Shown here one piece after another: positions 7,298 through 41,301 of a stretch of 64,000 nt of DNA. A model generated the notes under the pieces. That model was given only the letters and a program-made list of their open reading frames with translations, was not told the origin of the DNA and did not search any database. Where the stretch lies: positions 1-64,000 of the forward strand of contig JAGOAU010000005.1 in the NCBI GenBank assembly GCA_017983755.1, read 5' to 3'. Source of the stretch: Azonexus sp. (GTDB taxonomy: Bacteria; Pseudomonadota; Gammaproteobacteria; Burkholderiales; Rhodocyclaceae). Both the position numbers and the translations under genes were made by a program. The number at the start of each line of letters is the position of its first letter. Position 1 is the first letter of the stretch.

Positions 7298-8387
7298 AAA
7301 AACGGTGGTCGTCGGTTTGTCCGGCGGTGTCGATTCGTCGGTGGCGGCCTTGCTGCTCAAGCGCCAGGGCTGGAGGGTGATCGGCCTGTTCATGAAGAAC
7401 TGGGAAGACGACGACACCGAGGAATACTGCTCGTCGCGCCAGGATCTGGTCGACGTGATGAGCGTTGCCGACAAGATCGGCATCGACGTCGAGGTGGTCA
7501 ATTTCGCCGCCGAATACCGCGAGCGGGTGTTCGCCGAATTCCTGCGCGAATACCGCGCCGGCCGGACGCCGAATCCGGACATCCTGTGCAACTCGGAAAT
7601 CAAGTTCAAGGCCTTTCTCGACCATGCCATGAAGCTCGGCGCCGACCGGATCGCCACCGGCCACTATGCCGGCGTGCGCGAATTCGACGGCAAATTCCAG
7701 CTCTTGAAGGCCGAGGATGGCACCAAGGACCAGAGTTATTTCCTTTGCCGGCTGAATCAGGCGCAGCTGTCGAAAACGCTGTTTCCGCTGGCCGACATCT
7801 ACAAGCGTGAAGTGCGCAAGATCGCCGAGGCCGAGGGCCTGCACGTCGCCGCCAAGAAGGATTCGACCGGCATCTGCTTCATCGGCGAACGGCCGTTCAA
7901 GGACTTCCTGGCGCGTTATCTGCCGCCGAAACAGGGCGAGATCCGCCGCCTCGACGACGGCAAACTGATGGGCGAGCACGACGGCCTGATGTTCCACACC
8001 GTGGGCCAGCGCAAGGGGCTGCACATCGGCGGCATCAAGGAAAAGAGTCAGCCCGGTGGCGGTGAGCATGACGCGTGGTTCGTCGCCGGCAAGGACATGG
8101 AGAAGAACGTCCTCTACGTCGTTCAGGGCCACGACCACCCGGCGCTGCTCAAGGATGCGCTGGTCGCCGAGCAGCTTTCCTGGGTGTCCGGCCGGGCGCC
8201 GCACACGCACTGGGTGTACACCGCCAAGCCGCGCTACCGGACGGCCGACCAGCCCTGCGAGGTCGAGCGCGTCGATGGCGAAACCTGCGAAATTCGCTTC
8301 GCCGAGCCGCAGTGGGCGCTGGCGCCGGGGCAGTCGGTGGTGCTTTACGAAAGCCGCGTCTGTCTGGGTGGCGGCGTGATCCGCTGA
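7290..8387 (+). CDS. mnmA: tRNA-uridine 2-sulfurtransferase
   Basis: MnmA installs the 2-thio group on U34 of tRNA-Lys, -Glu and -Gln using sulfur relayed from IscS/Tus proteins. The 365-residue frame begins with the ATP-pyrophosphatase loop [13 protein letters not shown] (residues 11-23). The catalytic cysteines are Cys100 in [10 protein letters not shown] and the later [15 protein letters not shown] Cys near 197. The C-terminal beta-barrel domain is complete. It overlaps the upstream secreted-protein gene by eight bases. Cytoplasmic. Confidence 0.96.
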
Positions 8388-8436
8388 CTGCCGCCCGCCC
8401 GATTTTCATCCTCCAATGGTTTCATAGGCTGCCAAC

Positions 8437-9294
8437 GTGTCCGATCGTCTCGCCGTTCTACCGCAATACCTGATCCCCAAGCAGGCCCTCACGATGCTGG
8501 CCGGCAAACTCGCCGGCGCCCGCGCCGGCTCCCTGACCACCAGCGTCATCCGCTGGTTCGTCCAGCGCTACGGGGTCAACATGGCCGAAGCGGCCAATCC
8601 CGATGTCGCCGCTTACCCGACGTTCAATGAGTTTTTCACGCGCCCGCTGCGTGACGGTGCGCGGCCGCTCGCGGCTGCCGATTTCATCTGCCCGGTCGAC
8701 GGCGCGATCAGCCAGTTCGGCGCCATCGAGCGTGACCATATCTTCCAGGCCAAGGGGCATAGCTACTCCACGACCGCGCTGGTCGGCGGCGATCGCGAAC
8801 TGGCGGCGCAGTTCGAGGACGGCGCTTTTGCGACGCTGTACCTCAGCCCGCGCGACTATCACCGCATCCACATGCCCTGCGACGGCCGCCTGATGCGCAT
8901 GATTTACGTGCCCGGCGCCCTGTTTTCGGTCAATCCGACCACGGCGCGCGGCGTGCCCGGCCTCTTCGCGCGCAACGAGCGGGTTGTCTGCGTCTTCGAT
9001 TCGCCGCATGGCCCCTTTGTGCTGACGCTGGTCGGCGCCACCATCGTCGGCAGCATGGCGACCGTCTGGCATGGCGTGGTCAATCCGCCGCGCCCCGGCC
9101 ACCTGCGCGAATGGCAGTACGCCGACCGGCAGATCGCTTTCAGGCAGGGGGACGAAATGGGCCGTTTCCTGCTCGGTTCGACGGTGGTGATGCTGTTTCC
9201 GAAAGGCGTCATGCAATTCAACCCCGACTGGGCGCCGACGCGGGCGATCCGTCTCGGCGAGGCGATGGCAGTGAAAGCGCCGGCGGCGCAATAG
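8437..9294 (+). CDS. psd: Phosphatidylserine decarboxylase proenzyme
   Basis: Psd converts phosphatidylserine to phosphatidylethanolamine at the inner membrane and self-cleaves to make its pyruvoyl cofactor. The cleavage motif LGST is seen near residue 248 (FLLGSTVVMLFP), and the family's DYHRIHMP and NERVVCVFD segments are present. The start is GTG, giving 285 residues, slightly short of the E. coli enzyme but complete at both ends. It lies 49 bp after mnmA. A strong hairpin follows. Confidence 0.95.
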   Translation: MSDRLAVLPQYLIPKQALTMLAGKLAGARAGSLTTSVIRWFVQRYGVNMAEAANPDVAAYPTFNEFFTRPLRDGARPLAAADFICPVDGAISQFGAIERDHIFQAKGHSYSTTALVGGDRELAAQFEDGAFATLYLSPRDYHRIHMPCDGRLMRMIYVPGALFSVNPTTARGVPGLFARNERVVCVFDSPHGPFVLTLVGATIVGSMATVWHGVVNPPRPGHLREWQYADRQIAFRQGDEMGRFLLGSTVVMLFPKGVMQFNPDWAPTRAIRLGEAMAVKAPAAQ

Positions 9295-21645: not shown

Positions 21646-23340
<1,695 letters not shown>

Positions 23341-28073: not shown

Positions 28074-28088
28074 CTGCCAAAATGGCAG
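28074..28088. promoter_or_regulatory. Upstream palindrome 1 (candidate activator site)
   Basis: CTGCCAAAATGGCAG is a palindrome with 6-bp arms. It differs at one central base from the copy at 28141-28155, 67 bp away. Centres lie about 176 and 109 bp before the inferred sigma-54 start, as expected for enhancer sites. Confidence 0.65.
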
Positions 28089-28140
28089 AGGTGTTGATTC
28101 AGTAAAATCAACGACTTGGCTGAGATCGTTTGACTTGTGG

Positions 28141-28155
28141 CTGCCAAACTGGCAG
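28141..28155. promoter_or_regulatory. Upstream palindrome 2 (candidate activator site)
   Basis: CTGCCAAACTGGCAG has the same arms as palindrome 1. The sigma-54 response regulator encoded at 35096-36427 is the natural candidate to bind both. Confidence 0.65.
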
Positions 28156-28193
28156 GGCGCTAAATTTCTCCGAACTTCGAGAAGGCTTTAATT

Positions 28194-28211
28194 GCCATTG
28201 AAATCAATGGC
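28194..28211. repeat. Perfect 18-bp palindrome near the sigma-54 promoter
   Basis: GCCATTGA and TCAATGGC arms around AA, centred about 55 bp before the inferred start. The sequence differs from the two upstream palindromes, so a second factor may bind, or it may bend DNA between enhancer and promoter. Confidence 0.45.
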
Positions 28212-28230
28212 TTGAGAAAATCATCGATGC

Positions 28231-28246
28231 TGGCACGGACGATGCA
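28231..28246 (+). promoter_or_regulatory. Sigma-54 promoter of the molybdoenzyme operon
   Basis: TGGCACG-N4-ATGCA matches TGGCACG-N4-TTGCA at all but one base, with the invariant GG and GC exactly ten bases apart (28232-28233 and 28244-28245). Transcription would begin near 28257, giving an 84-nt leader. Confidence 0.78.
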
Positions 28247-28340
28247 CATGAGATAGTGCCCGGGCAGAGGGTCCGGGTCGTCTTCGCCCAAGATGCGAAG
28301 GCGGTGAATTCATTACAATCCATCATATGTGAGGTATTAC

Positions 28341-28652
28341 ATGAAGAAGATCGCTACCGTTGTTGCCATCGCCGCCGCTTTTGCTGCCAACGTTTATGCT
28401 GCCGACCAGAAAGGCATGTCGGGGATGGGCGGCATGTCCGGCATGGAAGGCCAGAAGGGCATGTCCGGCATGCAGGGCATGGAAGGTCAGAAGGGTATGT
28501 CCGGCATGCAGGGCATGGAAGGTCAGAAGGGTATGTCGGGCATGGGTGGCATGTCCGGCATGGAAGGCAAGAAGTCCAAGTCCTCCAAACAGGAAGGCAT
28601 GTCCGGCATGGGTGGCATGTCCGGCATGGGCGGCATGGAAGGCAAGAAGTAA
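28341..28652 (+). CDS. Methionine-rich secreted repeat protein
   Basis: 103 residues. Signal peptide MKKIATVVAIAAAFAANVYA, then about 83 residues built from GMSGM, GGM and GMEGQK units with 19 Met, many Gly and Lys, and no Cys, His or Trp. The ATG at 28341 has GAGG six bases upstream. It is first behind the sigma-54 promoter. Met-only proteins of this kind can hold Cu(I) or act as sacrificial oxidant scavengers repaired by methionine sulfoxide reductase, as described for the MrpX peptide of Azospira; either role here is inference. No Msr gene is adjacent. Confidence 0.85.
   Translation: MKKIATVVAIAAAFAANVYAADQKGMSGMGGMSGMEGQKGMSGMQGMEGQKGMSGMQGMEGQKGMSGMGGMSGMEGKKSKSSKQEGMSGMGGMSGMGGMEGKK
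28452..28523 (+). repeat. Two tandem 36-bp units in the Met-rich gene
   Basis: Two 36-bp units (28452-28487 and 28488-28523) differ at one base and each encode QKGMSGMQGMEG. Diverged units flank them, indicating growth of the gene by tandem duplication. Confidence 0.85.
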
Positions 28653-28718
28653 TATCTGCCTTGGTACGAATGAGGCGGGATTGCCTGCCTCATTCCTGAA
28701 TTCGAAACTGGCGGAAAA

Positions 28719-29018
28719 ATGAAAAATCTGAACCTGTTGCTCGGGTTGCTGGTAGTCGCCGGGGGAGCCGTCGCGCAGACGCAGGGCTTAATCGCCGGCC
28801 TGACGCCTGACCGAAGGCCCGAGGGAGCGCCGGTCATCACGCAGTTCGAGCAGACGCCAGCCTGGTGGGAAGCGGCGCTGCATGGCATTTCGCCACCGCA
28901 AAACGGCGTCGGCTTCCTGAAATACCAGGGAGCCTGGTATACCCCGTTCATCCTTCCCAACAGCACGGGGCGCTACGATATTCGCGGCTTCCATGCCGTC
29001 AAGGGACGCAAGGAATAA
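28719..29018 (+). CDS. Small secreted protein of the molybdoenzyme operon
   Basis: 99 residues with a signal peptide (cleaved after GAVA, near residue 18). The mature part is Trp/Pro-rich (TPAWWEAALHGISPPQNGVG; YQGAWYTPFILPN) and has no Cys, so it is not a cytochrome. I do not recognise it. It lies 66 bp after the Met-rich gene and 2 bp before the pentahaem cytochrome, so it is expressed with them and probably works in the periplasm with the complex. Confidence 0.78.
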   Translation: MKNLNLLLGLLVVAGGAVAQTQGLIAGLTPDRRPEGAPVITQFEQTPAWWEAALHGISPPQNGVGFLKYQGAWYTPFILPNSTGRYDIRGFHAVKGRKE

Positions 29019-29020
29019 TC

Positions 29021-29893
29021 ATGGAGAACCCGAAAGTCGGGATCGCGATTCTTGCCCTGGTGCTCGGGGCTTCGCTGGTCGGCGGCCTGGCGGGCTGGCA
29101 GATCCGTCAGCAGAACGCCGCCCAGGGGGCGGCCGCGACGCGGGATGCGGCCAGTGTGTCCGGGGGCAGCAAGGACATCCTGCGGGCGACCTACGACCCC
29201 ATTCATTTCCGGCCGGCCATCGAAAGCGCACGCGACGAACAATGCCTGGCCTGCCATCGCGAGGTGCTCGACGACAAGGTGCGCCCGACATCGCCGGCGG
29301 GCATCGGGGCTGCGGACAGCAAGGCCTGGTATCAGCGGCTCACCACCTATGCCGGTGACCAGGATACCTTCCACCGGCGCCATCTCGCGACGCCGATGGC
29401 CAGGGAACTGATGAATCTCTCCTGCAACACCTGCCATCAGGGGAGCGATCCGCGGGACGAAGCGCCGGGAACCTCGGCTACCGGGACGCCGCAGAGCGAC
29501 GCCGGCTTTACCCTGCGCAAGACCGTCAATCCGGAAACCGCCTGCCTGAAATGTCACGGCCAGATGAATTCGGCGGTCATGGGCTTGCCGTCGCCGTGGC
29601 ACGAGTCGAAGGAAATGTTCGGCAATTCCTGCCTGACCTGCCATGCCGCCATCCGGACCACGCGGCACCAGGTGACCTACCTCAAGGCGGAGGCCATCGA
29701 GGCGGCCGGCCAGAAGAATGCCGACGTCTGCTACGGCTGCCATGGCGGCCGGGCCTGGTATCGCATCGAATATCCCTATCCGCGGCATCCGTGGGAGGGC
29801 ATGTCGCCCGAGGTGCCGGACTGGGCGAAAGGCCGTCCGGTAGAGAGCGAGGCTCGTTTCGTCCTGCCGGCCGGCGGACAGAACCGGAAATAA
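29021..29893 (+). CDS. Membrane-anchored pentahaem cytochrome c
   Basis: 290 residues. One N-terminal membrane anchor (about 7-28, VGIAILALVLGASLVGGLAG) is followed by a periplasmic domain with five CXXCH sites: CLACH, CNTCH, CLKCH, CLTCH and CYGCH. Extra His residues (TFHRRH, SPWHES, TTRHQV) can supply distal ligands. AAGGA precedes the ATG. The operon has no DmsC/NrfD-type quinol-oxidising subunit, so this protein is the likely electron link between quinols or periplasmic carriers and the molybdoenzyme. It is not a typical tetrahaem NapC/NirT protein. Confidence 0.88.
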   Translation: MENPKVGIAILALVLGASLVGGLAGWQIRQQNAAQGAAATRDAASVSGGSKDILRATYDPIHFRPAIESARDEQCLACHREVLDDKVRPTSPAGIGAADSKAWYQRLTTYAGDQDTFHRRHLATPMARELMNLSCNTCHQGSDPRDEAPGTSATGTPQSDAGFTLRKTVNPETACLKCHGQMNSAVMGLPSPWHESKEMFGNSCLTCHAAIRTTRHQVTYLKAEAIEAAGQKNADVCYGCHGGRAWYRIEYPYPRHPWEGMSPEVPDWAKGRPVESEARFVLPAGGQNRK

Positions 29894-29902
29894 GGACGCA
29901 GC

Positions 29903-32473
29903 ATGGACACGAAACGCAACTGGCTGGATGTTCTCAATCCGCGACGCCGCAACTTCCTGAAGACCGTTGGCGCCGGCGCCGCCGTCGCGACAACCGGTGG
30001 TCTGGTCGAGATCGGTCTCGGCGAGCAGCAGGCGGAGGCCTTTCCCTATGAGCCCTATCCGCGCGACGACGACCTGACGACGGTGGTGACCTCCTGCGAC
30101 CACAACTGCGGTTCGCGTCACATGCTGGTCGCCCACAAGAAGGGGGATGTCATCGTTCGCCTGTCGACCGACAACGGCAGCTATCAGGAAGGCGGCAAGG
30201 TCGGTCTCGACACCGAGGCCGTGCCGCAGTTGCGCGCCTGCCTGCGCGGCCGTTCCTACCGTTCGCGCCTCTATTCGCCGGAGCGTCTGCTTTATCCCAT
30301 GATGCGGGTCGGCGAGCGCGGCGAGGGCAAGTTCAAGCGCGTATCGTGGGACGAAGCGCTCGAGCATGTCGCAAGGAAGATGGTCGAGATCAAGCAGAAA
30401 TACGGCCCGACGGCGATTCTCGACCAGGCCTACGCCGGCACATCCTACGGCGTACTGCACAAGTCGGACCAGATCGAAGGCCTGCTCGCCCGCTTCCTCG
30501 GCATGTTCGGCTGCCGCACCAATTCATGGTCGGTGCCCAGCTATCAGGGGACGACCTTCAGCTCGCGCATGACCTTCGGCACCATCACCGACGGCAACGA
30601 GGACGACGCCTTCGCGCACAGCAAGCTGATCATCATGTGGGGCTGGAACCCGGCCTACACCTTCCACGGCGGCAACACCTTCTACTACATGCGGCTGGCC
30701 AAGCAGCGCGGCTGCAAGTTCGTCGTCGTCGACCCGCAATACACCGATTCGGCGGCCAGTTACGACGCCTGGTGGATTCCGATCAAGCCCAATACCGATG
30801 CCGCGATGCTGGCCGGGATGGCACACCACATCTTCGCCAACAACCTGCAAGACCAGAAGTTCATCGACAAGTTCTGCCAGGGCATGGATGCCGGCACGAC
30901 GCCCGAGCAGTTCAAGGACCGCGAGAACTTCAAGGACTACATCCTCGGCAAGTACGATGGCGTGCCCAAGACGCCGGAGTGGGCCGAGAAGATTTGCGGG
31001 GTTGCTGCGGTCGACATCAAAAAACTGGCCGAAATGTACGCCACGACCAAGCCGGCGGCGCTCAAGGCGAGCTGGGCGCCGGGTCGCGCCAGCTATGGCG
31101 AGCAGTACAACCGCATGGCGGCGGCGCTGCAGGCGATGACCGGCAACATCGGCATTCTCGGCGGCTGTGCCGAAGGCGTCGGCAAGGGCTGGCACGCCGA
31201 GGCGGTGGCCTACCCCTACGACGAGTACGCCAACGTCTGGTACGCCTCGATCAAGTCCGACCGCTGGGCGCATTGCGTGCTCAACTACCCGAACCTGAAG
31301 CGCGAGGAACTCGGGCTATGGCCGCGCAACGACGAGCTGGACGGCAAGATTCCCAACATCAAGGCGATCTTCTGGCACGGCTCCGACTGGTTCAACCAGT
31401 TGACCAACGTGAACAAGGAAATCCAGGCGATCCGGAAGCTGGAACTGGTGGTCTGCATGGACTCGACCATCACGCCTTCGGCGCTGTGGGCCGACGTGCT
31501 GTTCCCGATCGCCACCCACTTCGAACGCCACGATGTGGCGCTGCCTTGGTACAAGGGGCATTACTATATCCATCGCCCGAAGGTGATCGAGCCGCTGGGC
31601 GAGTCGAAAACCGATTTCCAGGTGTTCACCGAACTGGCCTACCGCATCGAGAAGCTTGACCCGTCGGTCAAGGATTTCGGCAAGCGTTACAACCCGCGCG
31701 CCGAACGCGCTTACTTCGAGAAGAACGACGCTACCGACGAGGCCTACCTGGTGGCGTGGTGGAAGCGCGTCCAGGAACATCAGGGTGTCAGGATGTCCTG
31801 GGAGGATTTCAAGAAGCACGGCGTCTACAAATTCAGCTTCGACCGGCCGCACGTCGCGTTCGAGGAGCAGATCAAGCGCGGCGTGCCGTTCGAAACGCCG
31901 TCGGGCAAGATCGAAATCCTGTCGACGACGCTGGCCAACGTGAAGGACTGGACGCGGACGCAGTACGGCTACGAAATCCCCTACATCCCGAAATGGATCG
32001 AGCCCTTCGAGTCGCTCAACCACGAGAAGGCGAAGAAGCTGCCCTTCCACATGATCACGCCGCACCCGCGCTGGCGGACGCACTCGATCTTCCACAACAT
32101 TCCCTGGCTGCGCGAGACCTATCAGCAGGAGGTGACGATCAATGCGACGGATGCGGCGAAACTGGGCATCAGCACCGGCGACATCGTCGAAATCTGGAAC
32201 GAGCGCGGCAAGGTGGTCGTCCCGGCCTACGTTACCGAGCGCTGCATGCCGAACGTCGTGGTGCTGTTCGAAGGGGCGTGGATGGATCTGGCCAAGGACG
32301 GGACGGACCGCGCCGGCAATCCGGATTTCCTGACCCTCGACCAGCCCAGTCCGGCCGGTGCCTTTGCCTACAACACCATCCTGGTCGACATGAAGAAGAC
32401 GGCGCTGGATCATCGTCCGGGCTGGGACGTGCAGGCCACCTCGCGTTCGGCCATCTTCCGTCGGGACAAGTGA
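29903..32473 (+). CDS. Tat-exported DmsA-like molybdopterin oxidoreductase
   Basis: 856 residues, the catalytic subunit of a complex iron-sulfur molybdoenzyme. The Tat motif RRRNFLK begins at residue 14. The FS0 cluster region reads Cys65-x3-Cys69-x3-His73 and later Cys113 in CLRGRS; DmsA has Cys at the third position, so one ligand is changed to His. A Ser in VPSYQ near residue 212 is the candidate Mo ligand. The C-terminal cofactor domain (HPRWRTHSIFHN) is complete. Closest by eye to DMSO reductase DmsA; substrate unknown. An FeS subunit follows after eight bases; no DmsD chaperone is in view. Confidence 0.88.
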   Translation: MDTKRNWLDVLNPRRRNFLKTVGAGAAVATTGGLVEIGLGEQQAEAFPYEPYPRDDDLTTVVTSCDHNCGSRHMLVAHKKGDVIVRLSTDNGSYQEGGKVGLDTEAVPQLRACLRGRSYRSRLYSPERLLYPMMRVGERGEGKFKRVSWDEALEHVARKMVEIKQKYGPTAILDQAYAGTSYGVLHKSDQIEGLLARFLGMFGCRTNSWSVPSYQGTTFSSRMTFGTITDGNEDDAFAHSKLIIMWGWNPAYTFHGGNTFYYMRLAKQRGCKFVVVDPQYTDSAASYDAWWIPIKPNTDAAMLAGMAHHIFANNLQDQKFIDKFCQGMDAGTTPEQFKDRENFKDYILGKYDGVPKTPEWAEKICGVAAVDIKKLAEMYATTKPAALKASWAPGRASYGEQYNRMAAALQAMTGNIGILGGCAEGVGKGWHAEAVAYPYDEYANVWYASIKSDRWAHCVLNYPNLKREELGLWPRNDELDGKIPNIKAIFWHGSDWFNQLTNVNKEIQAIRKLELVVCMDSTITPSALWADVLFPIATHFERHDVALPWYKGHYYIHRPKVIEPLGESKTDFQVFTELAYRIEKLDPSVKDFGKRYNPRAERAYFEKNDATDEAYLVAWWKRVQEHQGVRMSWEDFKKHGVYKFSFDRPHVAFEEQIKRGVPFETPSGKIEILSTTLANVKDWTRTQYGYEIPYIPKWIEPFESLNHEKAKKLPFHMITPHPRWRTHSIFHNIPWLRETYQQEVTINATDAAKLGISTGDIVEIWNERGKVVVPAYVTERCMPNVVVLFEGAWMDLAKDGTDRAGNPDFLTLDQPSPAGAFAYNTILVDMKKTALDHRPGWDVQATSRSAIFRRDK

Positions 32474-32480
32474 GACGAGC

Positions 32481-33152
32481 ATGGTCAAGAAAGTCGACAA
32501 ACAGGAACTCGAACAGGCGATCCGGCGCAAGGTGGCGCAGACCTACGAGCCGGTGAAACCGGCGGTCCAGCTTGGGTTCGTGCACAACAACGTCGATTGC
32601 ATCGGTTGCCGCGCCTGCGAGATCGCCTGCAAGGACAAGAACGGCCTGCCGCCCGGACCGCGTTTCCGGCGCGTCATGTACATCGAGGGGGGCGCCTATC
32701 CCGAGGTGTTCGCCTACAAGGTGAACATGAGTTGCAACCATTGCGCCGAACCGGCCTGCCTCCCGACCTGCCCGACCGGCGCGATCTGGAAGCGGGCCGA
32801 CAACGGCGTCGTCGACATCGACTCGACGCTCTGCATCGGCTGCCGCAAGTGCGAGGCCGCCTGCCCCTATGGCGCGCCGCAGTGGGATCCACAGGCGCAG
32901 GTGATCAAGAAATGCAACATGTGCATCGACGAACTGGAGTCCGGTCGCAAGCCCTATTGCGTCATGGCCTGCATGATGCGTGTGCTCGACATCGGGCCGG
33001 TGGAGGAGATCTGGGCGGGAACGCTCAAGACCACGGCCGTCGGTCCGCATGAAAAGACGGTCCGGCAGGTCAGGAACATGGCCGATCCGCAGCTCACCAA
33101 ACCCTCGATCGGTTTCGTTCCCCACAGCAAGGGACGCGTTGATGGAAAATAA
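32481..33152 (+). CDS. DmsB-like four-cluster ferredoxin subunit
   Basis: 223 residues with four Cys groups for [4Fe-4S] clusters: CIGCRACEIACK near 34-45, CNHCAEPACLPTCP, CIGCRKCEAACPYG, and CNMCIDELESGRKPYCVMAC. It would pass electrons from the pentahaem cytochrome to the Mo subunit and be co-exported with it, as in DmsAB and NrfC-like partners. It lacks its own signal peptide, consistent with that. It ends 44 bp before a strong terminator. Confidence 0.92.
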   Translation: MVKKVDKQELEQAIRRKVAQTYEPVKPAVQLGFVHNNVDCIGCRACEIACKDKNGLPPGPRFRRVMYIEGGAYPEVFAYKVNMSCNHCAEPACLPTCPTGAIWKRADNGVVDIDSTLCIGCRKCEAACPYGAPQWDPQAQVIKKCNMCIDELESGRKPYCVMACMMRVLDIGPVEEIWAGTLKTTAVGPHEKTVRQVRNMADPQLTKPSIGFVPHSKGRVDGK

Positions 33153-33195
33153 AAACCCTCGTTGATGGATCGCTGCGGGTTGTCGTGCAGATTGT

Positions 33196-33225
33196 GCCGA
33201 CCGGACCACCGGTCGGCCTTTTTTT
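33196..33225 (+). terminator. Intrinsic terminator between structural and regulatory genes
   Basis: Perfect 9-bp arms GCCGACCGG and CCGGTCGGC with an ACCA loop and seven T. It ends the structural transcript; the kinase and regulator genes downstream depend on readthrough or a local promoter. Confidence 0.92.
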
Positions 33226-33241
33226 GATAGGGTTCCGGGAT

Positions 33242-35095
33242 ATGACGGCCAACAGGCAAACCCGTTCGCTGCCTCTGGGGCAACGCATGCTGCGCCAGGT
33301 GCTGCTGGTCGCCGGCGGCGCCTCGTTGCTGTTCGGGCTGCTGTTTCTCGGGCTTTACCGGGACCAGCTGACGCGCGAAAAGGTGGCCGCCTCGGAGCAG
33401 ATCAATCACCTGCTGCGCGCGGCGCTCGAAAACGCCATGCTGAAGCGCGACGTGCCGGGGCTGCGCGACATCATCACCCGCTTGGGCAGCTTGCCTGCCA
33501 TCAGCGACGTCATGGTTCTCGAACCCGGGGGCGAAGTGCGCTTCGCTTCGCGTGCCGAGAATCTGGGGCGTCGTTTTCCGGAACTGGTGGCGGCAACGCC
33601 CGGGAATCGCTTCATCGACGGGGTGGCCGGCGGGGAAGTGCTGCGTTCGGTCACGCCGGTGCCCAATCAGCCGCAATGCGTGGCCTGTCACGGTCAACTC
33701 GAAAAACACCCGATAAATGGCGTGCTGGTGGTGGACGTCCGCGCCGACACCCTGCGCCGCGAAGCGTGGCGCAGCGCCGCTCTGTTTGCCCTGGCCGGGG
33801 CGGTGGTGCTGGCCCTGACCTTGCTGACTGTGTGGAGGTTGCTCCGGCAACGGGTCTTGCTGCCCCTGGCCGAACTCGACCGCGCCGCCTGCGCCCTGAG
33901 CGCAGGCGACCTCGCCCTGCGTGCAAGAGCGAGCGGCGACGATGAGCCGGGACGGCTGGCCGGCAGTTTCAACCGCATGGCCGACAGCCTGGTCGAGCAG
34001 ATCGGTCTCGCCGAAGGGCAGCAACGCTACCTGCAGGAACTGCTCGACGGATTGCCGGACGGCGTACGGGTCATCCGGCAGTCGGACATGCGCATCGTCG
34101 CGGTCAACCAGGCGTATTGCCGCCAAGTCGAGGCGAGCGAGCACGAGGTGCTCGGGCAGCCCTGCCATCTTTCCAGCCATGGGCGGGACAAGCCGTGTCC
34201 GGCGACCCTAGTGGTCTGCCCGGCACAGGAGCTGAAGGCGCCCGGACAGGCGCTGAAGTGCCGTCACCGGCACCGGACGGCCAGCGGCCGGGGGTTCCCG
34301 GTGGAAGTTCATGCGGTGTTGATCGAGCGCAACAACGGTGCAGCGCCGGAGCGCCTGATCGTCGAGTCGACCAGCGATCTCTCGGACGTCGCGCGCCTCT
34401 CGCAGGAGCAGCGTCTGTCGGAACTGGGCCTGCTCGCTGCCGGCATCGCCCACGAAATCCACAATCCGCTCGGCTCCATCCGGCTGGCCGTCGACGGCCT
34501 GCTGCGCAGCCTGCGCCACAACAGCGCCGATCCCGCCCGGCTGGCCAGCTATCTGGAGATGGTCAATGCCGAGATCGATCGCTGTACCGGCGTCACCCAG
34601 CGCCTGCTACTGCTGTCCCGCCTGCCGCAGCAGCAGGCGCAGATCGTGCCGCTCAACCCGGCGGTCGGCGATACCCTGCAACTCGTCGAGTACGATTCGC
34701 GCAGCCACGGCATCGTTCAACATGTCCGGCTCGAACCCGCAGAGCCGCGTATCATGGGTGACGAGAGCGACCTGCGCATGCTGATCCTGAATCTCGTCCA
34801 GAATGCCCACCATGCCATGCCCGCCGGCGGCGAGCTGCATGTCACGACGGCTATCGAAGGTGACAAGGCGGTGCTTGTCATACGCGATAGCGGCAAGGGA
34901 ATTTCCGCCGACAATATCGAGCGCATTTTCGATCCCTTCTTCAGTCACCGCGCCGACGGCGAGGGCGGGACAGGGCTTGGCCTGACCATCTGCAAGAGTA
35001 TCGTCGAGCGCTATGGCGGCCGGATCGAGGTCAGCAGCGTGCTCGATCAAGGTACGGTTTTCCGGGTTCTGTTTCCGCTGGCAGGCAGTCAATAA
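33242..35095 (+). CDS. Sensor histidine kinase with periplasmic c-type haem motif
   Basis: 617 residues. Membrane spans lie near 18-39 and 178-200; between them the periplasmic domain contains a haem attachment motif CVACH (Cys146, Cys149, His150). Then come a HAMP region, a Cys-rich PAS domain (about 262-380, Cys at 293, 308, 319, 326, 340), the phospho-acceptor His404 in GIAHEIHNPLGS, and the ATPase domain (LVQNAHHAMPAGG, DSGKGIS, GGTGLGLTICKSIVERYGG). It is a candidate redox or gas sensor for the operon upstream and is immediately followed by its response regulator. Confidence 0.92.
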   Translation: MTANRQTRSLPLGQRMLRQVLLVAGGASLLFGLLFLGLYRDQLTREKVAASEQINHLLRAALENAMLKRDVPGLRDIITRLGSLPAISDVMVLEPGGEVRFASRAENLGRRFPELVAATPGNRFIDGVAGGEVLRSVTPVPNQPQCVACHGQLEKHPINGVLVVDVRADTLRREAWRSAALFALAGAVVLALTLLTVWRLLRQRVLLPLAELDRAACALSAGDLALRARASGDDEPGRLAGSFNRMADSLVEQIGLAEGQQRYLQELLDGLPDGVRVIRQSDMRIVAVNQAYCRQVEASEHEVLGQPCHLSSHGRDKPCPATLVVCPAQELKAPGQALKCRHRHRTASGRGFPVEVHAVLIERNNGAAPERLIVESTSDLSDVARLSQEQRLSELGLLAAGIAHEIHNPLGSIRLAVDGLLRSLRHNSADPARLASYLEMVNAEIDRCTGVTQRLLLLSRLPQQQAQIVPLNPAVGDTLQLVEYDSRSHGIVQHVRLEPAEPRIMGDESDLRMLILNLVQNAHHAMPAGGELHVTTAIEGDKAVLVIRDSGKGISADNIERIFDPFFSHRADGEGGTGLGLTICKSIVERYGGRIEVSSVLDQGTVFRVLFPLAGSQ

Positions 35096-36427
35096 ATGAA
35101 AAAACTGGTTCTGATCGTCGATGATGACCGCGTCTTCAATCGGCTGCTGGTCGAGCAGGTCGCCGAGATGGGGCTGGACGCCGTCGGCGCACACAGCTGG
35201 AAAGAGGCGGCGCAGATTCTTCAGGACAGCGAGCCGGACCTGATCTTCCTCGACCTGAGATTGCCGGATGCCGACACGCCGCAACTGGTCGCCAGCCTAT
35301 CCGGTCAGTTCCCGATCGTGGTACTGACCGGCTACGGCTCCATCCGCAACGCGGTCAGCCTGATCCAGGCCGGCGCCGTCGAATACCTGACCAAGCCGGT
35401 CGGGCTGGACGAGCTGGAAATCACCATCCGCCGCGAACTGGACAACGCCGAGCTGAGGCGCCGCAATGCCTTTTACCGCCGCCAGCTTGCCTCCCGCCGT
35501 CCCGGCCCGCTGATCGGCAACGCGCCGGCCATGCAGGAGGTCATGCGGCTGATCGAGGCGGTGGCGCCGACCGATGCGACGGTCATGATCCAGGGCGAAT
35601 CCGGAAGCGGCAAGGAAATGGTTGCCCAGGCGATCCACGAGAGCAGCCAGCGCCGTGGCCGCGAGATGGTCACGGTCGACGGCGGAACCTTGCAGGAAAC
35701 GCTGTTCGAATCCGAGCTCTTCGGCCATGAACGGGGCGCCTTTACCGGGGCGGAGCGCCAGAAGAAAGGCCTGATCGAAGAGGCAGAAGGCAGCACGCTC
35801 TTCCTCGACGAGATCGGGGAAACCAGCCAGGCGAACCAGGCCAAGCTGCTGCGGGTGCTCGAAACGGCCACCTTCCGTCGCCTGGGCGGCACGCGCACGC
35901 TCAAGGCCGACGTGCGCTTCATCGTCGCCAGCAATCGCGATCTGGCGGCGATGGGACAGGATGGCAGTTTTCGCAGCGACCTCTATTTCCGTCTGGCCAG
36001 TTTCATCATCCGCGTGCCGCCGTTGCGCGAGCGGCGCGAGGACATTCCGCTGCTTGCCGAGCATTTCCTGCAACGCTTCGCGCGCGGCGTCGAACGCGAA
36101 CTGGCCCCGGAGGCCCTGCGGTTGCTGATGGCCTACGACTGGCCTGGGAACGTGCGCGAATTGCGCAACCTGATCGAACGCGCGGTCATCCTGACCGGCG
36201 GCGACCGCCGCATCCGCGCCGAGCATTTCGGCCCCATCGTCGGACGAACGAGCGATGCGGTGATTCTCGCCTTCGAGAATGAACCGAGTCTGGCCGACAT
36301 CGAGCGCGACTACCTGCGCCGCACCCTGTTGCGCCACGGCGGCAGCCGTACCAGGGCGGCGGCCGTGCTCGGCATCAGCGAGCGCAGCATTTACCGCCTG
36401 ATCAAGCAATACGAGCTGGGCGAGTGA
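35096..36427 (+). CDS. Sigma-54-dependent response regulator (NtrC family)
   Basis: 443 residues in three domains. The receiver has Asp9-11 and phospho-acceptor Asp53 (FLDLRLPD) with the LTKP lysine. The AAA+ domain has the Walker A GESGSGKE, the sigma-54 contact loop GAFTGA and TLFLDEIGE. A Fis-type helix-turn-helix (RAAAVLGISERSIYRLIKQYE) ends the protein. It begins directly after the kinase stop. It is the likely activator of the sigma-54 promoter at 28231, binding the palindromes at 28074 and 28141. Confidence 0.95.
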   Translation: MKKLVLIVDDDRVFNRLLVEQVAEMGLDAVGAHSWKEAAQILQDSEPDLIFLDLRLPDADTPQLVASLSGQFPIVVLTGYGSIRNAVSLIQAGAVEYLTKPVGLDELEITIRRELDNAELRRRNAFYRRQLASRRPGPLIGNAPAMQEVMRLIEAVAPTDATVMIQGESGSGKEMVAQAIHESSQRRGREMVTVDGGTLQETLFESELFGHERGAFTGAERQKKGLIEEAEGSTLFLDEIGETSQANQAKLLRVLETATFRRLGGTRTLKADVRFIVASNRDLAAMGQDGSFRSDLYFRLASFIIRVPPLRERREDIPLLAEHFLQRFARGVERELAPEALRLLMAYDWPGNVRELRNLIERAVILTGGDRRIRAEHFGPIVGRTSDAVILAFENEPSLADIERDYLRRTLLRHGGSRTRAAAVLGISERSIYRLIKQYELGE

Positions 36428-36458: not shown

Positions 36459-39029
36459 TCAGGCCTCGGCGATGCGCCGTGCGATATGGGCGAGCGCTTC
36501 TTCGACCTGGTCGATCAGGATCAGGCACAGGTCACCCGGCTGCAGGCGGCCCAGCGCCGTATCGATGGCGATGAACTCGCCGTCGATGGCATCGATGTGG
36601 CGGGCGCGGCCGGCATTGGCCAGGCCTTCGCGGAGCAGGGCGATGACCTCGCCGTCCTCGCGCCCGCGCTGGCAGGCGTCCTGGTAGAGGATGACGTCGT
36701 CGAAGGCTTCGCCGAGGATTTCCGTCTGCTGGCGGATATCGTCGTCGCGCCGGTCGCCGGCGCCGCTGATGACCACCGAGCGGCGCCTGGCCGGCATGTT
36801 CTCGATGCCGGCGACCAGCGCCTGGATGGCGTCCGGGTTGTGGCCGTAGTCGGCGATCAGCGTCGCGCCCTTGTAGTCGAAGACATTGAAGCGGCCGGGG
36901 GCGGTGGCTGCATCGCTGACGAAATTGGCCAGCGCGCGCTCGATGACTTCCCAGGAATAGCCCAGCGCCCAGCCGGTGGCCGTGGCGGCCATGGCATTTT
37001 CGACCTGGAAGCCGATGGTGCCGTTGCGCGTGAGCGGGACGTTGGCCAGCGGGATGCGGTACTTCTTGCGCCCTTCGCCGCAGACGATGGCGTCGCGCTC
37101 GACATAAACGACCCGCCGGCCCTGCGCCCGGTGCGTGGCGAGCACCGGGTTCATGCGGTTCTGGGAAAAGAAGATGATGTTGCCCTGGCAGTGATGGGCC
37201 ATGGCCGCGACCACCGGGTCGGCGGCGTTGAGGACGGCGGTGCCGGTCGGCGCCACGTTCTCGACGATGACGCGTTTGACCACCGCCAACTCGTCGACCG
37301 TGGTGATGAAATTGAGGCCGAGGTGGTCGCCGAGGCCGATGTTGGTGATGACGGCCACGTCGCACATGTCGAAGCCGAGGCCTTCGCGCAGCACGCCGCC
37401 GCGCGCGGTCTCGAAGACGGCGGCGTCGACGTCGGGGTGCAGCAGCACGTTGCGCGCGCTGCGCGGGCCGGAGCAGTCGCCGTCATCGATGCGGCGGCCC
37501 TGGATATAGACGCCGTCGGTGCTGGTCATGCCGACGCGCAGGCCGTTGCTTTCGAAAATACGGCCGATCAGGCGGCTGGTGGTTGTCTTGCCGTTGGTAC
37601 CGGCGATGGCGACGACCGGAATGCGGGCATTGTCGCCATCCGGGAACATCATGCCGACGATGGCCTCGCCGACCGCCCGGCCCTTGCCGAAGGACGGGTC
37701 GAGGTGCATGCGCAGGCCGGGGGCGGCGTTGACTTCGACGATGCCGCCGCCTTGCTCTTCGAGCGGCTTGAGCATGGTGTCGCAGACGACGTCGATGCCG
37801 GCGATGTCGAGGCCGACCGTCTGGGCCGCGGCAACGGCGGCGGCGGCCAACTCGGGATGGACGTCGTCGGTGACGTCGGTGGCGGTGCCGCCGGTCGACA
37901 GGTTGGCGTTGTTGCGCAAGACGACGCGTACGCCGCGCGGCGGCACGGAATCGGCGTCGTAACCCTGCTGGGCCAGGCGCGCCAGCGCGATTTCGTCGAA
38001 ACGGATCTTGGTCAGCGAGGTGGCGTGGCCGTCGGAGCGGCGCGGATCGCTGTTGACGATGTCGACCAACTGGCGGACGGTATTCTTGCCGTCGCCGATG
38101 ACCAGCGGCGGGTCGCGGCGGGCGGCGGCGATCAGCTTGTCGCCGATGACCAGCAAGCGCCAGTCGTGGCCGGGCAGGAATTTCTCGACCATGATGTCGT
38201 CGCGGAATTCGATGGCGACGCGGTAGGCCTGGCGCACCTGTTCTTCGGTCGTCAGGTTGACCGAAATGCCCTTGCCCTGGTTGCCGTCCTGAGGCTTGAC
38301 GACGACCGGCAGGCCGACTTCCTGGGCGGCGACCCAGGCATCGTCCTCGTCCTCGACCGGGCGGCCGTAGGGCACGGCGACGCCGGCGGCGTGCAGCAGC
38401 TTCTTGGTCAGCTCCTTGTCCTGCGCGATTGATTCGGCGATGGCGCTGGTATGGCTGGTTTCGGCAGCCTGGATACGCTTCTGCCTGCTGCCCCAGCCGA
38501 ACTGGACGAGGCTGCCCTGGGTCAGACGGCGATACGGAATGCCGCGGGCGACGGCGGCCGAGACGATGGCGCCGGTCGAGGGACCGAGGCGGATGTCCTC
38601 GTCGAGATCGCGCAGTTCCTTCAGCGTGCCGTCGAGGTCGAACGGCTTGTCATTGAGCGCCGCCAGGCAGAGCTGTTCGGCACGCTCGAAGGCGAGGCGG
38701 CCGACGTCCTCTTCGGTGTATTCGACGACGACTTGATAGACGCCGGTATCGACCGTCTGCGCTGTGCGGCTGAAGGTGACTGGGCAGCCGGCCTGGGCCT
38801 GCAGGCCGAGCGCGGCGAACTCCAGCGCGTGGGCCATCGAGACGGTGTCGAGGTGGTCGGCGGGGATCAGGTCGCCCAGTTCCGGGAAGCGCTCACGCAG
38901 GCGGGCTTCAAAACCGGGCAGGTTGGCGATGGCGACTTCGGCACCTTCGCAGGTGACGATGGCCTGGATGGCGGTGTGCCGGCTCCACAGGTTGGGGCCG
39001 CGCAGGGCACGAATGCGGGAAACGTCCAT
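36459..39029 (-). CDS. cphA: Cyanophycin synthetase
   Basis: CphA makes multi-L-arginyl-poly-L-aspartate without a template, adding Asp then Arg at the cost of ATP. 856 residues, the standard CphA1 length. An N-terminal domain is followed by the ATP-grasp domain (VVKPQDGNQGKGISV; GIVEVNAAPGLRMH) and a Mur-ligase domain with an intact P-loop GTNGKTTTSRL. The ATG at 39029 has AAGGA upstream and the family N-terminus. A second synthetase gene lies 16 bp upstream. Stores nitrogen in cytoplasmic granules. Confidence 0.95.
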   Translation of the reverse strand: MDVSRIRALRGPNLWSRHTAIQAIVTCEGAEVAIANLPGFEARLRERFPELGDLIPADHLDTVSMAHALEFAALGLQAQAGCPVTFSRTAQTVDTGVYQVVVEYTEEDVGRLAFERAEQLCLAALNDKPFDLDGTLKELRDLDEDIRLGPSTGAIVSAAVARGIPYRRLTQGSLVQFGWGSRQKRIQAAETSHTSAIAESIAQDKELTKKLLHAAGVAVPYGRPVEDEDDAWVAAQEVGLPVVVKPQDGNQGKGISVNLTTEEQVRQAYRVAIEFRDDIMVEKFLPGHDWRLLVIGDKLIAAARRDPPLVIGDGKNTVRQLVDIVNSDPRRSDGHATSLTKIRFDEIALARLAQQGYDADSVPPRGVRVVLRNNANLSTGGTATDVTDDVHPELAAAAVAAAQTVGLDIAGIDVVCDTMLKPLEEQGGGIVEVNAAPGLRMHLDPSFGKGRAVGEAIVGMMFPDGDNARIPVVAIAGTNGKTTTSRLIGRIFESNGLRVGMTSTDGVYIQGRRIDDGDCSGPRSARNVLLHPDVDAAVFETARGGVLREGLGFDMCDVAVITNIGLGDHLGLNFITTVDELAVVKRVIVENVAPTGTAVLNAADPVVAAMAHHCQGNIIFFSQNRMNPVLATHRAQGRRVVYVERDAIVCGEGRKKYRIPLANVPLTRNGTIGFQVENAMAATATGWALGYSWEVIERALANFVSDAATAPGRFNVFDYKGATLIADYGHNPDAIQALVAGIENMPARRRSVVISGAGDRRDDDIRQQTEILGEAFDDVILYQDACQRGREDGEVIALLREGLANAGRARHIDAIDGEFIAIDTALGRLQPGDLCLILIDQVEEALAHIARRIAEA

Positions 39030-39045
39030 GACGCTGGATTCCTTG

Positions 39046-41301
39046 TTATTTCCGGACGGCGGCCGGTTTCCTGGCCGGTTGCGCCTGCTTGGCGCGCTGC
39101 GATAGCACGGTGGCCGGGTCGGGGAGGGCGAGACCGAAGGTCTTGACCCCGGTGGCCAGAACGTCCTGGCTGAGACCGAGCGCCCAGCCGGCGGCGACGC
39201 CGGCCAGCACATTGGCGATCTTCTTCGGCGACTTGGCCTTGCCGATATAGGGCGCGTCGATCAGGCGGCAGAGGCGAATCTCGTCGCTACCGTTGCGCAG
39301 CACGATGCGGTTGTCGACGACGGTGACCCCGCGCTTGCCGGCCGCCAGGTGGGCTGTCAACACCGGGTTGGCAGCGTCGCAGGCGAAGAAGATCACCTCG
39401 CCGTCGCAAAGTTCGGCGAAGTCGGCGACCAGTTCGTCCTCGGCATTCAGCACGGCATGGCCGCCGGGCAGCACGACGTCGACCTGCGAGCGATAGATCG
39501 AGCGATGCGTCGTGTAGTACTCGCTGCCGGTCGGCTGGACATCCCAGCGTTCGAGATTCTCGTCTTCCGGAACGATGTTGGTGACGATGCCTACGGCGCA
39601 GCGATCGTAGGGCAGGCCCTGGCCGAGGATCACCTCGGCGCCGTTCTCGATCACCGCTGCCTCGACGGCGCGGTTGAGCAGCAGGCGGCGGCCGCCCTCC
39701 CAGTTGGCGGCATCGGATTTCTGCACCTGGCGGCGGCCGAGGAAGATGCCGTCGCTGCAGGCGAGCCCGACATACTGGGCGGAAAGGTAGAGCAGGCGGG
39801 CGACCAGCTTGGCCACGGCATTCCGGCCGTGGGTGCCGCTGACACCGACGAGCGGCACGCGGCCGGACTGGCCTGCGGCGAACAGGTTGTCGACGATGGC
39901 CTGGCCGACCGGACGTGGCTTGCCGATGCCGGGCTTGATGTGCATCAGCAGGCTGGGGCCGGCGTTGACTTCGACGATGGCGCCGCCCTGCGAGGCCAAT
40001 GGCTGCGAAATATCCTGGCAGACGAGGTCGACGCCGGCGATGTCGAGGCCGACGACGCGGGCGGCGAGGGCGGCCTGTTCGGCGGTTTCGGGATGCACTT
40101 CGTCGGTACAGTCGAAGGCGTGGTTGGCGTTGCGCTGGATCAGCACTTCGCGGCCGGCCACCGGTACGCTGTCGCCGGTCAGGCCCTGGCGTTCGAGTTC
40201 GATGCGGGCGGCGGTGTCGATCCTGATGATCGACAGCGGGTGCAGTTCGGTGGTGCCGCGGCGCGGGTCGGTATTGACCTGGCTGTCGATCAGTTCCTGG
40301 ACGGTCGACTTGCCGTCGCCGGTGATGGTGATCAGGTCGCTGCGGTTGGCTGCGACCAGCTTGCCGCCGACGACCAGCAGGCGGTGTTCGATGCCCGGAA
40401 TGGAGCGCTCGACCAGCACGCCGGAGCCTTCGTCGACGGCGATGGCGTAGGCCTTGGCGACTTCCTCGCGGGTGGTCAGGTCGATGAAGACGCCGCGCCC
40501 GTGGTTGCCGTCGGTCGGCTTGACGCAGACCGGGACGCCGATGTCCTCGGCGGCATCCCAGGCGTCGTCGGCGTCGTCGACCTCGCGGCCCTCGGGTACC
40601 GGTACGCCGACCGAGGAGATCAGTTCCTTGGTCAGGTCCTTGTCGCGCGAGATGGTTTCGGCGATGGCGCTGGTCTGGTCGGTTTCGGCAGTCCAGATGC
40701 GGCGCATCGCGGCGCCGTAGCCGAGCTGGACCAGGTTGCCGTCTTCCAGGAGGCGGATGGCCGGAATCTTCCGGTCGTCGGCAGCATTGACGATGGCAGC
40801 GGTGGAGGGGCCGAGGTACTTGCGGTCGACCTTGCGGCGCAGGGTGTCGATGACATCGGCGACGTCGAAGGCATGATTTTCGATGGCGGCGAGCAACAGG
40901 TCGCGACCGAGTTCCAGGGCCATGCGCGTGACTTCTTCGTGCCAGTTGCTGACCACGAGCTTGTAGACGCCGCGCGTGGTGGTTTGCCGCGTGCGTCCGA
41001 AGCCGTCGGGCAGCCCCGCCTGGGTCATCAGTTCGAGAACCACGTGTTCGAGGATGTGCCCAGCCCAGGTTCCTTCCTGCAGGCGGCGCAGGAAGCCGCC
41101 GTGCTCGTCGTAGCTGCAGCGGTGGTCGACAAGCGCGGGCAGCCAGGCCGTCAGGCGCTCGTACAGCCCGGGAATCTTGTCGGAGGGCAGATCCTCCAGT
41201 TCACCGATGTCGATCCAAATTTCGAGAACCGGCGGGTAGGTCCAGATGCTCGGGCCACGCAGGCTGATGATGTCCCGAAAGATGATGTCTTTTTTCTTCA
41301 T
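39046..41301 (-). CDS. Second cyanophycin synthetase-like protein (CphA')
   Basis: 751 residues, about 100 shorter than CphA. The N-terminal and ATP-grasp domains are conserved (CVKPTDGNHGRGVFI; GAIVEVNAGPSLLMH). In the Mur-ligase domain the P-loop GTNGKTTT has become GTHGRNAV, so the ATP-dependent arginine-adding site is probably inactive, and the C-terminal domain is shortened to a Pro/Lys tail. Paired cphA/cphA' genes occur in other betaproteobacteria. It may initiate chains, extend from dipeptides, or modulate CphA; this is inference. Confidence 0.9.
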   Translation of the reverse strand: MKKKDIIFRDIISLRGPSIWTYPPVLEIWIDIGELEDLPSDKIPGLYERLTAWLPALVDHRCSYDEHGGFLRRLQEGTWAGHILEHVVLELMTQAGLPDGFGRTRQTTTRGVYKLVVSNWHEEVTRMALELGRDLLLAAIENHAFDVADVIDTLRRKVDRKYLGPSTAAIVNAADDRKIPAIRLLEDGNLVQLGYGAAMRRIWTAETDQTSAIAETISRDKDLTKELISSVGVPVPEGREVDDADDAWDAAEDIGVPVCVKPTDGNHGRGVFIDLTTREEVAKAYAIAVDEGSGVLVERSIPGIEHRLLVVGGKLVAANRSDLITITGDGKSTVQELIDSQVNTDPRRGTTELHPLSIIRIDTAARIELERQGLTGDSVPVAGREVLIQRNANHAFDCTDEVHPETAEQAALAARVVGLDIAGVDLVCQDISQPLASQGGAIVEVNAGPSLLMHIKPGIGKPRPVGQAIVDNLFAAGQSGRVPLVGVSGTHGRNAVAKLVARLLYLSAQYVGLACSDGIFLGRRQVQKSDAANWEGGRRLLLNRAVEAAVIENGAEVILGQGLPYDRCAVGIVTNIVPEDENLERWDVQPTGSEYYTTHRSIYRSQVDVVLPGGHAVLNAEDELVADFAELCDGEVIFFACDAANPVLTAHLAAGKRGVTVVDNRIVLRNGSDEIRLCRLIDAPYIGKAKSPKKIANVLAGVAAGWALGLSQDVLATGVKTFGLALPDPATVLSQRAKQAQPARKPAAVRK

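Follow-up and report, generated by a model that had tools for sequence, protein, structure and literature searches.

Molybdoenzymes of the dimethyl sulfoxide (DMSO) reductase family are among the closest described relatives of the system considered here. DMSO is reduced, along with other oxides, by enzymes of the DmsA and DorA types (PMC10100899); DorA also reduces methionine sulfoxide bound in proteins (PMC7402097), and TorA pairs with the pentahaem cytochrome TorC (PMC11727998). In perchlorate reducers, the periplasmic Met-rich peptide MrpX and YedY are reported to form a methionine-cycling antioxidant pair (PMC4623255); in this MrpX/YedY (MsrP)-YedZ system, a sulfite-oxidase-family enzyme works under SigF/NrsF control, with hypochlorite as the oxidant. 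We analyzed a 64,000-nt stretch of DNA from Azonexus sp. (contig JAGOAU010000005.1, positions 1 to 64,000; hereafter the window), in which seven co-directional open reading frames encode a Gly-Met-X repeat protein, a small secreted protein (P2), a pentahaem c-type cytochrome, a DmsA-like catalytic subunit (A), a DmsB-like iron-sulfur subunit (B), a c-haem histidine kinase, and a sigma-54-dependent response regulator. A previous sequence-only reading had listed these seven genes in this order, and a check of the open reading frames confirmed them at their positions with the expected domain motifs. With about even confidence, we interpret the operon as a nitric oxide (NO)-responsive periplasmic methionine-sulfoxide cycling system, based on the gene set, its conservation, and the partners that accompany A across genomes.

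To define the distribution of the gene set, the genome_contigs collection of 84,980 species was scanned with A (tblastn, E <= 1e-3), which returned 312 related stretches, not all of them necessarily orthologues. The locus counts given below rest on the best 80 of the 312 stretches, which together with a plasmid copy and the window make up 82 loci. With many of the contigs cut, the pentahaem gene was matched in 80/80 loci, B in 78/80 and P2 in 51/80, and a kinase of at least 36% identity was present in 39 of the 82. A TorD-like chaperone gene (PF02613) was found in 63 of the 69 loci with room for it, a ferredoxin-like gene and a small cytochrome c gene recur near the operon, and the conjugative plasmid pEJ01 of Rhodobacter xanthinilyticus carries the operon in identical gene order. 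A was carried by 25 of 150 genomes of the family (own genome included; one carrier is a contig-end fragment), 15 of 368 of the class (own genome excluded), and 4 of 397 other genomes of the phylum, where a fifth match at 41% falls outside the group; these carrier searches had a limit of E 1e-100 or 1e-130, and in each genome only the top-ranking candidates were scored. Orthologues of A are approximately 70–95% identical and the next homologue seen is at 41%, and this drop from about 70% to 41% or less makes the group look discrete. Judged by gene content, the seven genes are a conserved module beyond this genome. The accessory genes thus travel with A elsewhere, in the 80 loci and on the plasmid, and gene content and conservation together bear out the earlier description of a self-regulated periplasmic molybdoenzyme set. 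Among the literature matches listed, titles and the beginnings of abstracts held no description of this gene set, a search that left subscription papers mostly uncovered and is no proof of absence.

Sequence analysis placed A in a clade of its own. In a 31-row maximum-likelihood tree, built with a small reference set that leaves out the PcrA, ClrA, SerA, ArrA and IdrA sequences, 14 members of A group together with a support of 100/100 and a stem of 1.0, outside E. coli DmsA, YnfE and YnfF and outside TorA, TorZ, BisC and DorA. Within the references compared, A therefore lies outside the characterized clades, and the proposed distinctness of the set from named systems holds by tree and motifs for Dms, Ynf, Tor, Dor and Bis, with Pcr, Clr, Ser, Arr and Idr outside the tree. 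A role in chlorate, perchlorate or iodate metabolism was dropped, specific evidence for it having been neither sought nor found and ClrA, PcrA and IdrA being outside the tree. The window A scored 612.5 bits against TIGR02166 (DmsA/YnfE), under the curated cut-off of 777.7, a model matched by 35/35 A orthologues, and the window B scored 193 bits against TIGR02951, under the cut-off of 214.1. The identity of A is 36% to E. coli DmsA and 29–31% to DorA/TorA/TorZ-MtsZ/BisC, and the mean column identity across the 35 of 82 A proteins taken into the alignment is 82%, which is high given the host spread.

The Mo-ligand Ser, matched in the alignment by a Ser in both E. coli DmsA and DorA, is kept in 82/82 A proteins, and the third position of the motif for the FS0 iron-sulfur cluster is His in 82/82 (His73 in the window), where E. 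coli DmsA, YnfE and YnfF have Cys; this His may bind iron in A. At the SYGW motif of DorA, the aligned Tyr is kept in A and the Trp is replaced by Gly. By the Ser and the Tyr, A belongs with the Ser-ligated S- and N-oxide reductases. In common with the DMSO and selenate reductases DmsABC and YnfEFGH, the window set has A and B subunits, a twin-arginine translocation (Tat) signal, the Ser ligand and, as a family, a TorD/DmsD-type chaperone; it differs from them in its separate clade, its sub-cut-off scores and its FS0 His for Cys, and has a pentahaem cytochrome, P2 and a Met-rich protein instead of DmsC. DorA/TorA/TorZ-MtsZ/BisC share the Ser ligand and the S-/N-oxide chemistry class with A and are without FS0 and a B subunit, whereas the window set has an FS0-like motif and a B subunit. 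An AlphaFold2 model of A from 35 sequences reached a mean predicted local distance difference test score of 53.6 and was too poor for conclusions on active-site access or cluster geometry. The next nearest homologues of A (L052/L194 in G640 and L031/L193 in G105), 41% and 34% identical, each have one in-frame TGA; one is without a visible Tat signal and one falls inside the DmsA clade of the tree.

The most distinctive partner of A is the Gly-Met-X protein. The window copy has 20 Met in 103 amino acids, 19 of 84 residues in its mature part (stop sign counted), and matches Pfam Collagen with 32.7 bits, over the cut-off of 27.2. In runs of at least four G-X-Y triplets, Met stands at X in 2104 of at least 2459 triplets, the latter being the sum over the twelve commonest X residues. 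Proline does not rank among the common residues at X or Y, which is why no claim of a collagen triple helix is made. The repeat gene was found in 60 of the 82 loci, upstream of the cytochrome and with P2 between the two or before the repeat gene, and in 41 of the 58 loci with at least 3 kb of upstream sequence, with at most one gene between it and the promoter. A Met-rich secreted peptide (here secreted by eye) coded with a molybdoenzyme is the likeness to the MrpX system, in contrast to which the partner in the window is a PF00384 DMSO-reductase-family AB enzyme with a multihaem cytochrome and sigma-54 two-component control.

The closeness of this link was quantified at the class level by a strict DNA pattern of the repeat, scored as present with at least four matches anywhere in a genome (369 class genomes, own included). 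The signature was found in 15/15 non-own carriers of A and 2/353 non-carriers (Fisher 8e-25). Among the places listed, it shares the contig of A in 9 of the 15 carriers and occurs only on other contigs in five (G272, G280, G326, G449 and G499), those of G312 not being among the places listed; assemblies break at such repeats. In both signature-positive non-carriers (G422 and G387), the repeat gene lies at a contig end beside a kinase and a regulator, in G422 also beside P2, and A itself was not seen in either genome. At the genome level, the Met-rich protein is thus the most specific partner of A found by these counts, and the link between the two is nearly private. Further, in 47 loci judged for the repeat gene and the kinase/regulator pair, 29 had both, 5 the repeat gene only, 1 the regulators only and 12 neither (Fisher 1.3e-6, ignoring kinship); parsimony requires at least seven changes for the repeat gene and at least nine for the regulators, which indicates that their joint loss was not one event.

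Variants of the repeat were also observed. In G181, P2 is fused to a Met-rich tail, and further Met-repeat proteins (L264, L265, L266 and L269, in G326 and G181) lie on contigs other than those with A, some with Ala-rich coiled-coil-like tails. L263 (G387:C22, 7560-7916, minus strand) encodes a secreted protein, EF-hand-like by eye, with a GMSGM repeat tail, and in the alphaproteobacterial L108, L113, L114 and L197, short Cys-x-x-Trp/Tyr-like inserts interrupt the Gly-Met repeats.

Five CXXCH motifs were found in 77 of the 80 cytochrome orthologues of at least 230 amino acids, and four in the remaining 3. A profile of 36 of the 80 orthologues (L122 left out for a stop) matched only UndA in the PDB, and weakly (E 0.0029), and the window cytochrome scored 19.1 bits against NapC/NirT, under the cut-off of 24.1. 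The window protein starts with a hydrophobic segment and many orthologues have, by eye, a cleavable-looking signal or a lipobox, so that the pentahaem protein looks membrane-anchored in only part of the family and the anchor does not look conserved. As the sequence-only reading had noted, DmsC is absent from the unit, neither a DmsC nor an NrfD gene being found among the seven window genes. Its further proposal, that the cytochrome is a membrane stand-in for DmsC, is not supported in view of the signal and lipobox variants and the L072 copy, in which the operon is followed by a separate iron-sulfur protein, NrfD (PF03916, 116.9 bits) and another multihaem protein; L074 and L086 have the same extra iron-sulfur gene. 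On pEJ01, one fused gene encodes the pentahaem protein together with a monohaem cytochrome c. The signal and lipobox variants, the NrfD of L072 and the plasmid fusion suggest that the cytochrome acts as a shuttle rather than as a fixed quinol oxidase. A role as NapC/TorC-type quinol dehydrogenase was dropped in view of the weak NapC/NirT match and the same variants.

P2 had no significant match in Pfam, NCBIfam or the PDB. It was found in 48 of the 58 loci with at least 3 kb upstream, and an alignment of 47 of 53 family members (L058, L082, L113, L119 and L124, which are cut, overlong or have an in-frame stop, and L197 left out) has ten invariant columns. The AlphaFold2 model scored 71.2 and has little secondary structure, which is consistent with an extended protein; no fold is claimed.

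The CXXCH of the kinase is kept in 39/39 kinases of at least 36% identity. Searched against the PDB up to E 0.1, a sensor-domain profile of 28 of the 39 matched only the chemotaxis c-haem sensors 3b42 (E 0.0015), which we take to be GSU0935, and 3b47 (E 0.0096). At E <= 0.01, the 28 sensor domains matched PF21563 in 17 cases, sCache_3_2 in 14 and Tll0287 in 8. PMC12889525 describes GSU0582 (3B47) and GSU0935 as c-haem Cache domains, and reports for one signalling-type c-haem Cache domain tight NO binding and no stable O2 complex. The sensor of the kinase thus resembles domains reported as NO sensors, and NO, from this likeness (PMC12889525), would be a better candidate signal than the oxidant that had been suggested earlier. 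The genomic setting is consistent with denitrification: in the window the operon has nir genes next to it, nirS included, and 6 of the 81 other loci likewise have neighbouring nir genes, all six in one part of the tree and five of them in records named Azonexaceae or Dechloromonas. At the class level, a cd1-family match (E <= 1e-100) was found in 8/14 carriers and 58/324 others (p 0.0016, ignoring kinship; 339 genomes drawn, G499 left out), with carriers G181, G260, G272, G312, G375 and G454, absent among the matches listed, scored negative. This count and the family-level count given below cover cd1/nirS and not nirK.

The intergenic gaps along the seven genes are 66, 2, 9, 7, 89 and 0 bases, and the genes probably form one transcription unit. 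Taken alone, the sigma-54 site TGGCACGGACGATGC is unremarkable, the window holding 20 matches with up to two mismatches against 31.8 expected. Comparison across loci strongly supports it as a promoter element: in the 350 bases that precede the first gene, a site with up to one mismatch was found in 21/53 loci against 0.1 expected from base shuffles, and one with up to two mismatches in 35/53 against 1.1. The sigma-54 site seen by the sequence-only reading is therefore real. Seven of the loci in this comparison have neither the repeat gene nor the kinase/regulator pair (L060, L062, L065, L068, L069, L070 and L083), and 0/7 had a site with up to two mismatches. Two CTGCCA-N3-TGGCAG palindromes, at 28074 and 28141, are paired likewise, some imperfectly, in the five close relatives compared, and are likely activator sites.

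Taken together, these components could work as follows. NO or a related reactive species would reach the c-haem of the kinase, and the regulator would bind the two palindromes and fire the sigma-54 promoter. The Gly-Met-X protein would be exported, and reactive species would oxidize its exposed methionines instead of useful proteins. The A-B molybdoenzyme, which would depend on the TorD-like chaperone for maturation and on Tat for export, would reduce the methionine sulfoxides with respiratory-chain electrons that the pentahaem cytochrome may carry. Contact between A, the cytochrome and the repeat protein is probably aided by P2. Enzymes that reduce methionine sulfoxide are known in the Ser-ligated class, DorA doing so even in proteins (PMC7402097). 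Because enzyme and Gly-Met-X protein are linked almost privately, sulfoxide cycling is the most economical of the readings, and it predicts that the oxidized Gly-Met-X protein is the substrate. In its fullest form, which we put forward tentatively, the system would be a periplasmic oxidant sink that works reversibly, in which a secreted collagen-like Gly-Met-X protein has a private respiratory reductase that combines a new Cys3-His FS0 clade with a pentahaem protein and a P2 adaptor that are likewise new; it would be switched on by NO in denitrifiers and would have spread over Alpha-, Beta- and Gammaproteobacteria partly by plasmids. If true, denitrification would be tied to a periplasmic respiration dedicated to methionine repair, a widespread DMSO-reductase-family clade that is unnamed as far as the literature was searched would gain a function, and there would be a natural protein built almost wholly for oxidation and re-reduction.

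Several observations weigh against sulfoxide cycling under NO control. In 17 of the 58 loci with at least 3 kb upstream, the cytochrome and A are kept without the repeat protein, which indicates that the enzyme has some use without it. A looser repeat pattern (at least eight matches) was found in 21/25 family carriers and 3/125 others (150 genomes), and the 21 include G029 and G121, yet the repeat gene is missing at their loci, so that their pattern matches come from other genes. The Pfam matches of the window sensor all lie under the curated cut-offs, and its likeness to the c-haem Cache sensors (GSU0935, GSU0582, DUF3365/Tll0287) is a CXXCH in a periplasmic domain that looks Cache-like. The link with nirS is weak in the family (20/25 carriers and 75/125 others at E <= 1e-20, p 0.07, ignoring kinship), and the own genome also has MsrP, on another contig.

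The principal alternative, which we consider rather unlikely, is that the enzyme reduces a small molecule (an S- or N-oxide or an oxyanion) for respiration or detoxification, with the Met-rich protein as an accessory that shields enzyme or periplasm and not as the substrate. The 12 of 47 loci that keep the enzyme and cytochrome but have neither the repeat protein nor the kinase/regulator pair are in line with it, as are the DMSO and other oxides reduced by DmsA-/DorA-type relatives (PMC10100899) and the respiratory-looking electron supply, with an NrfD module beside the L072 copy; however, it leaves unexplained the class-level closeness of the repeat protein to the enzyme and the first or second position of its gene after the promoter. 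Binding of a soft metal ion (Cu+, Ag+ or Hg2+) by the Met-rich protein, in a set that handles metal stress or metal redox, would suit the MxxM spacing, which is a Cu(I)/Ag(I) motif, and the few Cys and His of the repeat frames in most loci, but is improbable, given that no metal transporter, Cu regulator or Cu enzyme was found in the recurrent neighbour clusters read, mostly by eye. Slightly less probable still is an oxidase of a reduced compound passing electrons to cytochrome c: the fusion of the plasmid pentahaem protein to a monohaem cytochrome c and the small cytochrome c added in some loci would fit, and the FS0 His might raise the cluster potential, but the nearest characterized relatives are reductases and the L072 copy lies beside an NrfD quinone module.

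Some of the family-level pattern matches have other sources. The strict-pattern places examined in G029, G121 and G012 are a short unrelated lipoprotein with a GMxGM patch (L185, L186 and L187), and two of these three carriers (loci L065 and L071) are visibly without the repeat gene at the locus. G131, which has the most matches among family genomes without A (10 strict), was rejected because its matches fall in a frame that is masked in part and flanked by two unrelated genes. The tail of GroEL holds GGM repeats and probably explains the one to three baseline loose-pattern matches in most family genomes.

The TorD-like gene is missing from the window operon. On contig C23 of the own genome, a TorD 70% identical to the L054 copy (L274, G000:C23:112000-128337; match 8238-8975, minus strand) lies between sulfurtransferase-like and QueG-like genes (names by sequence reading), and in L056 the whole operon occupies the site between such genes. 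This suggests that the window operon was probably relocated next to the nir genes, leaving TorD behind.

Features of the operon and its control region in the window (positions in the 64,000-nt stretch)
Feature	Position	Strand	Basis or remark
Palindrome CTGCCAAAATGGCAG, likely activator site 1	28074..28088	+	similar pairs in five close relatives
Palindrome CTGCCAAACTGGCAG, likely activator site 2	28141..28155	+	
Sigma-54 -24/-12 promoter element TGGCACGGACGATGC	28231..28245	+	one mismatch
(Gly-Met-X)n repeat protein, 103 amino acids, secreted by eye	28341..28652	+	Pfam Collagen, composition
P2, small secreted protein	28719..29018	+	family alignment
Pentahaem c-type cytochrome, N-terminal hydrophobic segment	29021..29893	+	five CXXCH
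Catalytic subunit A, PF00384 type, Tat signal, Mo-ligand Ser213, FS0-like C65-C69-H73-C113	29903..32473	+	
Iron-sulfur subunit B, DmsB-like	32481..33152	+	TIGR02951; kept in 78/80 loci
Histidine kinase: periplasmic c-haem Cache-like domain (CVACH), HAMP, PAS, HisKA, HATPase_c	33242..35095	+	
Sigma-54-dependent response regulator: Response_reg, Sigma54_activat, HTH_8	35096..36427	+	

The kinase starts at ATG 33242 or possibly at GTG 33185. Upstream of the operon lie nirS, nirF and nirD/L/G/H-type genes (PF02239 at 22129-23322, the other names by sequence reading), and downstream, at 36459-41301 on the minus strand, two large neighbouring genes presumably resemble cyanophycin synthetases.

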